From positions 1-63,468 of the forward strand of contig JANYJY010000003.1 of the NCBI GenBank assembly GCA_025358295.1: a stretch of 63,468 nucleotides of DNA, read 5' to 3'. The notes beneath the pieces are model-generated. The model made no database searches. It saw only the letters and a program-made list of their open reading frames with translations, and was not told the origin of the DNA. Source of the stretch: Gammaproteobacteria bacterium. GTDB taxonomy: Bacteria > Pseudomonadota > Gammaproteobacteria > Steroidobacterales > Steroidobacteraceae. This document shows positions 37,562 to 41,253 of this stretch, piece after piece (position 1 is the stretch's first letter; every line of letters starts with the position of its first letter). A program made the position numbers and the translations under genes.

Positions 37562-38044
37562 ATGCCATCCTTCGACGTCGTATCCGAAATCGATACCCAT
37601 GAATTGACCAATGCAGTCGACCAGGCAATACGCGAGCTCGGGCAGCGTTTCGATTTCAAGGGCACTGATGCCTCCTTCGAGCTGGAGGAGACGACCGTCA
37701 CCATGATCGCGCCCGCCGATTTTTAACTCAAGCAAATGCTGGAAATCCTCAAGCTCAGAATCGCCAAGCGCGGCATCGATGTCGCCTGTCTCGAAGTGAA
37801 AGACCCGGAGATCAATCTCGCCAGGGCCAAGCAGCTGGCGATACTGAAACAGGGCATCGACGCCGATACGGGTCGCAAAGTATCGAAGCTGATCAAAGAA
37901 TCCAAGCTCAAGGTACAAGCTCAGATTCAAGGCGAGAAGGTTCGAATCGTCGGCAAGAAACGCGATGACCTGCAAGAAGCCATCGCGTTTCTACGCAAGG
38001 CGGATGTCGGCATGCCGCTGCAATTCAATAATTTTCGCGACTGA
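37562..38044 (+). pseudogene. yajQ: YajQ family nucleotide-binding protein, interrupted by TAA
   Basis: The complete YajQ/DUF520 sequence is present in one frame, [21 protein letters not shown] through to PLQFNNFRD (160 codons), except that codon 55 is TAA at 37724-37726 where relatives have Gln (DFQxxQ). A single C-to-T change of CAA explains it. Two pieces result: 54 residues, and a possible re-initiated part from ATG 37736. YajQ binds cyclic di-GMP in some xanthomonads. The rest is undamaged, suggesting a very recent mutation or a read error. It lies one base after the upstream gene's stop. Confidence 0.88.
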
Positions 38045-38069
38045 ACCCCGCCGGATCTGCCCGCGCGAG

Positions 38070-38399
38070 TCAGCGCACAATGACGGTTCCAACCATGCTG
38101 GGGTGAATCGAGCAGGTAAAGTGGTATGTGCCGGGCCGGTCGAATTTGAAAGAGAAACTCTCTTTCGTATCCATCGCGCCGGAACGAAACGCGCCCGAGT
38201 CGCTGACCGCCGTATGTGGTTCATCGTCCAGGTTGGTCCAGGTTACCGTGGCCCCGACGGACACGATCAGCGGCACCGGCGAGAACGCGAAATTCTTCAC
38301 CGTGATGCGAACCGATTCCGGGGCGTCGGCCAGCGATGAACCGCCGACCGCCATCGAAGACAACAGAGCCAGCCGCCACAACAGGGATGGGCAATTCAT
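38070..38399 (-). CDS. Periplasmic cupredoxin (plastocyanin/amicyanin-like)
   Basis: 109 residues. A signal peptide (residues 1-25, ends SLADA) precedes a single cupredoxin domain. Type-1 copper ligands are visible: His62 in DDEPHT, then Cys96, His99 and Met102 in FTCSIHPSM. It overlaps the metallophosphoesterase gene by four bases and is the last gene of the ECF-controlled cluster. Small electron carrier or copper-binding protein; partner not shown. Confidence 0.9.
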   Translation of the reverse strand: MNCPSLLWRLALLSSMAVGGSSLADAPESVRITVKNFAFSPVPLIVSVGATVTWTNLDDEPHTAVSDSGAFRSGAMDTKESFSFKFDRPGTYHFTCSIHPSMVGTVIVR

Positions 38400-39343
38400 G
38401 ACCGGGCCAGCGTCATATCGCTCATGGCCAATGAGCGGGGGTGTTTAACCACGGACACACTGGTGACGCCGAGCATTGCCGCCAACTCATCCGGCGGCGC
38501 CTTCAGCGGTCCCGGTCCAGGCCCGACGCCCGCCAAGGGTTGCGGGTACGCAGTCGAGCGGGCCGTATGGAAGGTCATATTTCCTTCCACCTTTTGAACG
38601 ATCTGATGAATATGGCCGTTCAATACCGTCACCGATCCGAAGCGGCGCAATCGATTGGTCAGCAACTCCGCATCGCCGGTCCCCCACCCCCAGGGCTCGT
38701 AGATCGACCACAATGGCATGTGTGCGAAGACCACGATGGGCGTGCTGTCGGTGCGGCCCTTCAAGTCAGCAGCCACCCAATCGAGTTGCTCGGTGCCGAG
38801 CGTGCCGAGACCGCCGGGCTTGAACTGCATGACATTCACGAGGCCGATGAAGTGCACGCCGGCGTGATCGAAGCTGTAGTACCCCTTGTTGCCGGAGGCC
38901 TTGCCGAACCGGCTGAAGTACTCCGTCATGGCGGCGTCGGTGGTGTCATGTTCACCCGGCACAGTGTGGATCTCGGTGGTGCGCAGGCGCGACAGCAGCT
39001 GCTGCGCCAGATCGAATTCCGCGGGCTTCGACAGATGCGTGATGTCCCCGGTATGAATGATCAACGCGGGTTGGCGCGCCATTCCGTTCACCAGATCAAT
39101 GGTTTGATTCAGCGTTCCGTTGACATCGGGATTCGCTTCTTTATTGAAGCCGATGTGCGTGTCGCTGATTTGCACGAACAGCGGCGTCCCTGCTCGGACC
39201 ATGCCCTCCTTGTCCGCAGCGGCTACCGCCAGGTCGAGCGGCGCAAAAACTCCGCCGGATAAGACAAAAAGCGTTCCCGCCCCACCATAGGCCAAGCACT
39301 TGAGCGCGTCGCGTCGCGATTGCAGCAATTTTTCGTCCGGCAT
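38396..39343 (-). CDS. Tat-exported metallophosphoesterase
   Basis: 315 residues. N-terminal SRRDALK is a Tat motif followed by a hydrophobic stretch. Calcineurin-like metal motifs are in order: Asp61-x-His63, HTGD (97-100), PGEHD (GEHD where most have GNHD, 130-133), FAHMP (His208) and GHIH (243-246). Cytoplasmic folding with metal before Tat export fits. AGGAG lies seven bases before the ATG. An ECF-type promoter copy is just upstream. Substrate unknown. Confidence 0.9.
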   Translation of the reverse strand: MPDEKLLQSRRDALKCLAYGGAGTLFVLSGGVFAPLDLAVAAADKEGMVRAGTPLFVQISDTHIGFNKEANPDVNGTLNQTIDLVNGMARQPALIIHTGDITHLSKPAEFDLAQQLLSRLRTTEIHTVPGEHDTTDAAMTEYFSRFGKASGNKGYYSFDHAGVHFIGLVNVMQFKPGGLGTLGTEQLDWVAADLKGRTDSTPIVVFAHMPLWSIYEPWGWGTGDAELLTNRLRRFGSVTVLNGHIHQIVQKVEGNMTFHTARSTAYPQPLAGVGPGPGPLKAPPDELAAMLGVTSVSVVKHPRSLAMSDMTLARS

Positions 39344-39371
39344 AGTCCACTCCTGGTTTGTTCAGGAGAGA

Positions 39372-39400
39372 AGACTTCCGCCGCGGCCGATTTATTCCCC
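39372..39400 (-). promoter_or_regulatory. ECF promoter copy B (before metallophosphoesterase)
   Basis: Minus-strand GGGGAATAAA (39400-39391), 15 bases, GTCT (39375-39372). The first block extends to TCGAGGGGAATAAA, identical to the copy before the sigma gene, with the same spacing. Transcription would start near 39365, giving a 22-base leader with AGGAG before the metallophosphoesterase. The -35 block contains the stop codon of the anti-sigma gene. Confidence 0.8.
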
Positions 39401-40195
39401 TCGATCGCGCGCGCCGAGATCTTGCAGCAGTCGAACCAAACTCAGCAATTCATCCCTCGCGGTGTCCGAAACGGCGCAGTAATCGAGATTCCCCGATTTC
39501 CAAAACACGAAGTGATAGCCGTTGCGAGACACGTCGGCCGGCAAGCCTCGGCCGTCGCCCGCCCAACTGAATACATTGATGACATGCGCGCCATGTTGGT
39601 AGACGACTACGGCCGAGCGCTGGCGATCCAGATAGTCGGCGCGCCCACCCATCAGCCGAAAGCCCTGCGGCTCAAAATCGGCAACCACCGGCGACACGTC
39701 GGTGTGTCCCGCAAACCACGGCTTCACCGTGTGCCGGTCGGTGGACACCACGTCGATGAGATGCGCGGGCATCAAAGAGCGCACATGTGCGCTTGCCAAT
39801 TCATCGATCAGCGGATTACCCAGCCGCGGCAGGACCAGCAGAAATGCGCAAGCCACCGCGACGGCCGAGGCCCCAACTCCAGCAAGCGCTCCCAGCCAGA
39901 AGGGCCGTATCCGCCGCGTCGGCGCAGCCGGCCCTCGAATATCACGCTCGCGCATGTCCTGCACCGGTGCGGCGCCGTCCTGATCCAGCGCCCGCGAAAT
40001 CGAGGTGCGAAGCGCGGGGGAAGCATGGGCATAGGCAGCACTGCGACGTAGCGCTGCGCGCACCTGCTCGAGATCCTTGAGTAGGGTGCGGCACTCACCG
40101 CAATGCTCGGCATGCCGCTCGATCTCCACCGCGCTGACTGCGTCGACTTCGCCGTCGAAGTAGGCCTGCACCCGCAACGATTCAGCGCACCGCAC
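39392..40195 (-). CDS. Anti-sigma factor with zinc-binding (HC2) domain
   Basis: 267 residues. N-terminal His28-x3-Cys32-x2-Cys35 zinc motif (RHAEHCGEC) for holding the sigma factor, one membrane helix at about 99-122, and a periplasmic C-terminal domain (residues 125-267). It overlaps the ECF sigma gene by 14 bases, the usual coupling. The last codons GGG GAA TAA form part of the -35 element of the next promoter. Confidence 0.9.
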   Translation of the reverse strand: MRCAESLRVQAYFDGEVDAVSAVEIERHAEHCGECRTLLKDLEQVRAALRRSAAYAHASPALRTSISRALDQDGAAPVQDMRERDIRGPAAPTRRIRPFWLGALAGVGASAVAVACAFLLVLPRLGNPLIDELASAHVRSLMPAHLIDVVSTDRHTVKPWFAGHTDVSPVVADFEPQGFRLMGGRADYLDRQRSAVVVYQHGAHVINVFSWAGDGRGLPADVSRNGYHFVFWKSGNLDYCAVSDTARDELLSLVRLLQDLGARDRGE

Positions 40196-40727
40196 GCGGC
40201 TCTCCTGCGGTTTCCAGCAGCCAACGCGCCTTCAACGCGGCCCGCGAGCGCGCCAGCCGCGACATGACGGTACCGATGGGCACGCTCGTAACTTGCGCGA
40301 TTTGGCGGTAGTCCATTTCCTCTATTTCGCGCAACATCAACACCGTGCGGTGCTCTTCGGGCAATGCCGCAATCAGCTTCTCCAGGGTGCGCCGCTCGTC
40401 CCTGCGAATGGATTCATCTTGCGGATCGGGGATGTTCGACCTCATGGCGTAGCCGTATTGGGCATCGTTTTCTTCCGGCAAAGGCACAAAAGCGCGCCGT
40501 TGCCTCTGCCTAAAGGCAGTCGAATGGCAATTTCTCACGATCGCCAGCAGCCAGGCCTTCACGTCGGAGCCCCGCAGTGCATCAAATCCGCGAAAGGCAC
40601 GTAGTACGGCCTCCTGCACGATGTCATCGGCGTCGGCGGGCGCATGGGTCAACCAACGAGCAAACCGGTACGCAGCGTCCAGGTGCGGCAATACCTCCGC
40701 CTCGAATCGCGCGCGCTTCTCATCCAT
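40182..40727 (-). CDS. ECF-family RNA polymerase sigma factor
   Basis: 181 residues. Sigma region 2 (AYRFARWLTHAPADADDIVQEAVLRAFRGFDAL, WLLAIVRN) and region 4 (LPEEHRTVLMLREIEEMDYRQIAQVTSVPIGTVMSRLARSR). First of four genes: sigma, anti-sigma, metallophosphoesterase, cupredoxin. Autoregulation is likely from the promoter copy directly upstream. That promoter would start RNA only two or three bases before the ATG, implying a nearly leaderless message. Stimulus unknown. Confidence 0.93.
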   Translation of the reverse strand: MDEKRARFEAEVLPHLDAAYRFARWLTHAPADADDIVQEAVLRAFRGFDALRGSDVKAWLLAIVRNCHSTAFRQRQRRAFVPLPEENDAQYGYAMRSNIPDPQDESIRRDERRTLEKLIAALPEEHRTVLMLREIEEMDYRQIAQVTSVPIGTVMSRLARSRAALKARWLLETAGEPRAVR

Positions 40728-40735
40728 GCAGGCTA

Positions 40736-40764
40736 AGACTCATCCGCGGCTCACTTTATTCCCC
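40736..40764 (-). promoter_or_regulatory. ECF promoter copy A (before sigma factor)
   Basis: Minus-strand GGGGAATAAA (40764-40755), 15 bases, GTCT (40739-40736). It is identical to copy B over TCGAGGGGAATAAA and in the spacing to GTCTT. The -35 overlaps the stop of the NYN gene. Confidence 0.8.
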
Positions 40765-41253
40765 TCGAACGCCACCCATTTTCATAAGCAGGGGATCTTT
40801 GATGGGAATGAACTTATTCGCCGCGCGAATCAGCGATGCGGCGGTAAGTTCAGCGACACCGTAAACCTCCACCGACACCTGATGTTTGTCGCGGATCCTG
40901 GTGACCAGCATATCGAAATCACCGTCACCCGAGGCCAGGACCACGACGTCCACCTGAGGAGCATATTCGAGCACGTCCAAGGTGATGCCCACGTCCCAAT
41001 CCCCTTTTGCGGATCCGTCGTTTCTTTGAATGAACGGCCGTAATTTCACCTCGAAACCGATAGCCCTCAATATATTTTGAAATTGCCTCTGTTTTTCATC
41101 GCCGCGATCGATCGCGAATGCGATTGCCTTGACTACCTGCCTGTTGCGAGTGGCGGCCAACCAAAAGTTGTTGTAGTCGAAATGGCGCGAGAAGAACTGC
41201 CGCGTCGTGTAATAGATATTTTGCACATCGACGAAGACAGCCACGGTTTCCAT
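40756..41253 (-). CDS. NYN/LabA-like domain protein (DUF88)
   Basis: 165 residues. A PIN-like NYN fold with conserved acidic residues in VFVDVQNIYY, KGDWDVGITLDV and VVLASGDGDFDMLV, the family metal site. These proteins are likely RNases. Its C-terminus RGE is encoded by the same bases as the ECF promoter -35 block. 46 bases separate it from apbE upstream on the same strand. Confidence 0.88.
   Translation of the reverse strand: METVAVFVDVQNIYYTTRQFFSRHFDYNNFWLAATRNRQVVKAIAFAIDRGDEKQRQFQNILRAIGFEVKLRPFIQRNDGSAKGDWDVGITLDVLEYAPQVDVVVLASGDGDFDMLVTRIRDKHQVSVEVYGVAELTAASLIRAANKFIPIKDPLLMKMGGVRGE

Follow-up and report, generated by a model that had tools for sequence, protein, structure and literature searches.

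Why should a gene that begins 48 nt behind the last stop codon of a sigma factor operon carry a copy of that operon's own promoter? The question is raised by a locus in a gammaproteobacterium of the family Steroidobacteraceae (GenBank assembly GCA_025358295.1, contig JANYJY010000003.1), analyzed here within a window of 63,468 nucleotides, the whole stretch of DNA under study. An exact search of the whole window finds GGGGAATAAA-N15-GTCTT exactly twice, at 39371-39400 and 40735-40764, both on the minus strand, and finds no match in 100 dinucleotide shuffles of the window. An initial sequence-only reading had described the block, 15 bases and GTCTT as occurring twice in the same orientation, 1.36 kb apart, before an ECF sigma gene and before a metallophosphoesterase (MPE)-cupredoxin pair; search and gene positions both agree. 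The two copies share a 14-base block, TCGAGGGGAATAAA, at 39391-39404 and 40755-40768, the copies lying 1364 bases apart. The copy at 39371-39400 lies upstream of the MPE gene, the copy at 40735-40764 lies upstream of the sigma gene, and the anti-sigma gene is found between them. The TAA within each block doubles as the stop codon of the gene ahead of it: that of the anti-sigma gene on the MPE side (39392-39394) and that of a NYN-domain gene on the sigma side (40756-40758). The features of the locus, all on the minus strand, are as follows.

40755-40764, minus strand: -35 element GGGGAATAAA of the sigma-gene promoter, its TAA being the stop of the NYN gene (exact search, conservation)
40735-40739, minus strand: -10 element GTCTT of the sigma-gene promoter; RNA start expected at 40727-40729 by comparison with the available S. 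meliloti data, ATG at 40727
40182-40727, minus strand: ECF sigma factor of 181 aa (Pfam sigma regions 2 and 4), mRNA probably leaderless, 12 nt from the G of GTC to the ATG
39392-40195, minus strand: anti-sigma factor with an N-terminal zf-HC2 zinc finger (domain match) and one hydrophobic stretch read by eye from the translation
39391-39400, minus strand: -35 element GGGGAATAAA of the MPE promoter, its TAA being the anti-sigma stop (exact search, conservation)
39371-39375, minus strand: -10 element GTCTT of the MPE promoter (exact search)
39372-39376, minus strand: bases that pair with 39344-39348 in the predicted read-through RNA (folding)
39363-39368, minus strand: 5' arm CTCCTG (bases 8-13), complementary to the Shine-Dalgarno; RNA start expected at about 39363-39365
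39350-39355, minus strand: 3' arm CAGGAG, containing the MPE Shine-Dalgarno
38396-39343, minus strand: metallophosphoesterase of 315 aa (Pfam Metallophos) with a twin-arginine-like start read from the translation
38070-38399, minus strand: cupredoxin of 109 aa (Pfam Cupredoxin_1 and Copper-bind), overlapping the MPE stop

The MPE begins with a twin-arginine-like sequence (SRRDALK) and the cupredoxin with a signal-like one, both read from the translations; both proteins are therefore probably periplasmic. Beyond the cupredoxin gene, a DUF520 (YajQ-like) frame on the plus strand (37562-38047) is interrupted by a single in-frame stop near 37724-37726.

The promoter pair and its regulon

ECF26 sigma factors are treated in several studies (PMC6180224, PMC3511301, PMC3616915, PMC10880074). 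In the available portions of these sources, GAAT-N18-GTCT is reported upstream of the rpoE1 and rpoE4 operons of S. meliloti (PMC3616915), and Table 1 of PMC6180224 shows GGGAATAAA-N15-GTCTT within the SMc01418-rpoE1 promoter. The ECF26 signature as given there, a -35 GGAATA and a -10 GT, or approximately GAAT-N18-GTCT, is present at both copies in the window. The sigma factor contains regions 2 and 4 only by Pfam, which is the ECF architecture, and it adjoins an anti-sigma factor that matches zf-HC2 at its N-terminus and was judged by eye to have a membrane stretch. The best NCBIfam model for the sigma factor is PRK12533, at 189.9 bits and thus below its cut-off of 248. Judged from the sequence, GGGGAATAAA-N15-GTCTT very probably serves an ECF26-type sigma factor as its cognate promoter, a role for this sigma factor that the sequence-only reading had proposed; the published RpoE1 motif and spacing, conservation before both sigma and MPE genes, and co-occurrence with sigma all support it. 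The conserved core is about GGGAATAAA-N15-GTCT. A leading TCGA(G) was rejected as part of the signal, as the bases before GGAATA vary among relatives. The motif itself is of an already known kind, and the new element is the set of translational features beneath the promoters, which the sequence-only reading had missed. A keyword search of the open-licence literature found no ECF26-type sigma factor with an MPE-cupredoxin target.

Conservation was followed through 217 genomes of the bacterial family, with presence of sigma and MPE scored at E <= 1e-30. Sigma is present in 50 and MPE in 49; the two occur together in 46 genomes, sigma alone in 4, MPE alone in 3, and neither in 164. GGAAT-N18-GTC precedes 46 of 53 distinct sigma copies and 42 of 49 distinct MPE copies. 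Among the remaining sigma copies four have a GATC form and three have neither form, while the remaining MPE copies comprise one with the GATC form, one with neither and five that are cut off. A strict 28-base pattern was found in 34 of the 50 genomes with sigma vs 4 of the 167 without, and one of these four (G113) carries an MPE gene when inspected by eye. The motif is retained where MPE is divergent from sigma (e.g. L107, L122, L123), and therefore it is not an operon side effect. Beyond the family, tblastn finds sigma, anti-sigma, MPE, and cupredoxin clustered in records from Burkholderiales, Rhizobiales, Acidobacteria, Gemmatimonadetes, and Phycisphaerales; the form of the motif that was sought is missing at some of these modules (e.g. 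L149, L158, L162), including several from Burkholderiales. In another of the sigma-less genomes with the strict pattern (G013, locus L251), the sigma promoter and first codons appear by eye to be fused to the tail of an MPE gene, which is either what a deletion left of the module or a join made during assembly.

The regulon appears to be very small. In the organism's own genome (4.02 Mb, 74 contigs, 97.5% complete) the strict motif occurs at the two window sites and nowhere else, in keeping with the small regulon first suggested from the sequence. The further suggestion that the motif could be used to find the rest of the regulon did not hold, as a relaxed scan of this genome uncovered no additional member. 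Allowing up to two mismatches yields 30 sites, compared to 15 for a reversed control, and most of the 30 fall within open frames. Two near-misses are suggestive: one stands 9 nt upstream of a second ECF gene, the other 43 nt upstream of an msrP-like gene. The latter was examined because ECF26 factors of S. meliloti control sulfite oxidase, according to the available text of the published work, and the molybdoenzyme gene was rejected as a regulon member: its upstream block differs and is also present in genomes without sigma. This other block, promoter-like and ending in GGTCTA, precedes 12 of 17 msrP-like genes in the genus (L272-L283, L289; C13 in the own genome). The former near-miss (L018, C34:49293-49320) is a second ECF sigma gene preceded by TGGAAGAAAC-N-GTCT with only 9 nt from GTC to the ATG, possibly another leaderless, autoregulated ECF gene. 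In three relatives (G001, G027, G066; loci L035, L142, L233) the same promoter stands before a gene for a secreted protein of about 215-240 aa with at most a weak beta-propeller resemblance (E = 0.065). This protein is likely a third regulon member in those relatives, to judge from its upstream sequence; a search for it in the window's own genome, weak as a negative, returned no match.

Predicted pairing over the metallophosphoesterase Shine-Dalgarno

In the window, CTCCTG (bases 8-13 from the -10 element) and CAGGAG (bases 21-26, which hold the Shine-Dalgarno) pair perfectly over 6 bp and enclose a loop of 7 nt. The predicted read-through fold lengthens this stem by AGUCU, which contains most of the -10 element and pairs with GGACU before the AUG. 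The computed cost of opening the Shine-Dalgarno is 10.7 kcal/mol in the read-through RNA vs 1.4 in RNA from the expected start.

These folds suggest that the MPE promoter could also gate translation. A signal, probably periplasmic, would release sigma from its zinc-finger anti-sigma factor, and the freed sigma would then drive two operons, its own and that of MPE and cupredoxin, from promoters that are nearly identical. The 48-nt gap has no space for a terminator beside the promoter, and therefore RNA of the sigma operon should run on into MPE. In this long RNA the transcribed -10 and discriminator (bases 3-13) would act as an anti-Shine-Dalgarno strand and hide the MPE Shine-Dalgarno, whereas RNA begun at the ECF start site would lack the 5' arm and leave it open. 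MPE and cupredoxin would then be made only from RNA started by sigma itself, and basal transcription of sigma and anti-sigma would yield neither. Weighing the computed folding together with the promoter evidence, we infer a two-transcript ECF26-type regulon of this kind with about even confidence.

The principal alternative is a plain ECF26 regulon in which complementarity between the -10/discriminator and the Shine-Dalgarno has no regulatory role, arising instead from a pyrimidine-rich discriminator that faces a purine-rich Shine-Dalgarno, or from descent. It was weighed on 50 leaders, three of an initial 53 having been left out for a distance outside 26-60 nt; 38 with at least 60% MPE identity form the family set and the other 12 are termed distant. 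Across the 38 family leaders the computed opening cost is 7.47 kcal/mol in read-through RNA vs 3.32 in RNA from base 12. Background genes do not show this effect, as 181 control genes give 4.21 vs 3.60 kcal/mol. The family contrast differs from the control contrast at p = 3.6e-9, although the leaders are related by descent and p-values of this kind are optimistic. The cost depends on where the RNA begins, falling from 5.80 for a start at base 6 to 4.57 at base 8 and 3.53 at base 10, and is flat afterwards. Stems scoring at least 6 pairs occur in 19 of 38 family leaders vs 14 of 198 background leaders.

The true leaders outscore both composition-preserving shuffles and leaders given the real promoter end of another genome, which counts against the plain regulon. 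With promoter ends exchanged between genomes, the 38 leaders cost 5.49 to open instead of 7.73, and the real value was not reached in any of 20,000 permutations. With a plain pair score on all 50 leaders, own ends gave 5.58 vs 4.97 for swapped ends, again with 0 of 20,000 permutations. Pairing with the own promoter end is better than pairing with dissimilar ends in 31 of 38 leaders, and the stem sequences vary from genome to genome while pairing is kept. The plain regulon draws its strength from single leaders, where just 9 of 50 reach p < 0.05 against shuffles and that of the window itself falls short of significance (p = 0.16), from the several leaders without a stem, and from the computed nature of all the fold evidence. 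Some family leaders (L074, L091, L110, L119, L134) show no gain or a reversed gain.

Gene layout bears on both readings. Within the family the effect is 5.67 where MPE follows anti-sigma (n = 21), 3.27 where it is divergent (n = 8), and 1.39 elsewhere (n = 9). The operon layout differs from the rest at p = 0.004 in the family and at p = 0.055 once the 12 distant leaders are added, since the effect is also seen in distant MPE genes of other layouts. The hairpin is missing in some genomes and present in others where no read-through from the sigma operon is expected, both of which count against a translational gate. The effect nonetheless extends to other families, a point against the plain regulon. 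In further genomes of the class and phylum, 8 of 16 loci have a scorable motif and the other 8, without motif by the pattern used, were unscored. Among the scorable leaders from other families 7 of 8 differ by >2 kcal/mol, with a mean of 4.4, in a comparison without control genes from those genomes; two of the eight belong to one genus, and the species may overlap the tblastn-found records. On balance the plain regulon is a possibility of some weight, though less likely than the gate.

The sigma gene start

The proposed gate depends on where ECF-started RNA begins. For S. meliloti, the listed ECF26 starts fall at base 11-13 when the G of GTC is taken as base 1. This reads the final letter of every listed sequence as the start, which lower-case entries and a footnote in the available part of the source suggest (PMC6180224). 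The A of the window's sigma ATG is base 13 by the same count. With the ATG at the expected RNA start and no room for a Shine-Dalgarno, the sigma mRNA in the window is therefore probably leaderless, to judge by its sequence, and sigma would also depend on that start. Among 46 sigma leaders the distance from G to start codon is 11-13 nt in 9 and up to 16 nt in 11, with the next at 22. In the window's genus it is 11-12 nt in six of eight members, 15 in one and 59 in one.

These distances bear on a second alternative, that RNA starts earlier, at about base 5, and the hairpin lies inside the ECF-started mRNA as an RNA thermometer or 5' stability element. The 5' arms mostly occupy bases 3-14 from the -10 element. 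In three leaders (L107, L122, L123) they occupy bases 9-16 and would partly remain in the short RNA, where a short stem would persist, which suits an earlier start. The mapped S. meliloti starts, so far as the accessible text of PMC6180224 lists them, disagree with it, and the sigma ATG, at base 12-13 in those six members of the genus, would then follow a short, useless leader. This reading is accordingly improbable. Even less credible is a third reading, in which the inverted repeat overlaps the start site as the DNA operator of some additional regulator. In its favor, the arms in the window make a perfect inverted repeat with a 7-base center; against it, the arms vary in sequence and spacing by genome while complementarity is kept, unlike the operator of one protein.

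Where sigma leaders are longer, a separate arrangement is seen. In 11 of 19 leaders of 50-75 nt, which are related sequences, a GTG or ATG lies exactly 25 nt upstream of the sigma ATG (L061, L062, L064, L065, L068, L070, L072, L078, L039, L142, L040). The frame that it opens has 10-11 codons and a stop overlapping the start of sigma (ATGGATGA), a hint that translation of the two may be coupled in cases where the sigma mRNA is not leaderless.

Returning to the gate at the MPE promoter, the locus may represent a broader class of bacterial stress promoters in which the -10/discriminator, when transcribed, doubles as an anti-Shine-Dalgarno strand, so that sigma would decide both transcription and translation, for MPE by a hairpin and for sigma by leaderlessness. 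This generalization is offered tentatively, with a little less confidence than the gate itself. If the gate is true, a target gene 48 nt behind the operon of its regulator, with no terminator between, would still stay off. Coverage by read-through RNA would in that case be no sign of protein, and the promoter and translation signals of such genes would need to be read jointly. The site is an ordinary ECF26 site, yet it offers a clean two-target regulon with many orthologs for comparison.

Comparison with known systems

In the transposase leaders of IS10 and IS50, read-through RNA from outside likewise folds over the ribosome binding site. These leaders differ from the window's locus in belonging to mobile elements and in having an ordinary promoter and no ECF sigma factor.

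The closest regulatory relatives are RpoE1 and RpoE4 of S. meliloti, as portrayed in the available sections of three studies (PMC6180224, PMC3511301, PMC3616915). The likeness includes the GAAT-N18-GTCT promoter, an autoregulated operon with the anti-sigma gene downstream, and a very small regulon with a blue copper protein among its targets. The targets differ, being sulfite oxidase and its electron carriers in S. meliloti and an MPE-cupredoxin pair here. A translational gate, as proposed here, is not mentioned for RpoE1 or RpoE4 in those sections. Sulfite-generating compounds elicit a response from RpoE1 and RpoE4, which have a pseudoazurin gene under their control (PMC3511301). Because RpoE3 and RpoE6 of the same species seem not to be induced by such compounds, according to the same partial source (PMC3511301), sulfite as the signal for the window's sigma factor would be only a guess by analogy.

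For the gate itself, the nearest parallels come from phage T4, where the accessible text describes genes e (lysozyme), soc and 49 and I-TevI as having an internal promoter in the stretch of DNA from which the 5' strand of a hairpin is transcribed (PMC3014915, PMC2988022). In gene e, late promoters lie within this DNA and translation of the long RNA is about 100-fold lower (PMC3014915); the arrangement of I-TevI is similar (PMC2988022). In these genes the long RNA hides the ribosome binding site and RNA from the internal promoter leaves it open. By computation, the long RNA of the window also folds over the ribosome binding site of MPE. The T4 system, as presented in those sources, relies on a phage late sigma factor and on timing and was shown by experiment, whereas the present case is a chromosomal ECF regulon known by computation only. 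If the gate is true, the MPE promoter would reproduce the T4 lysozyme arrangement on a chromosome in compact form.
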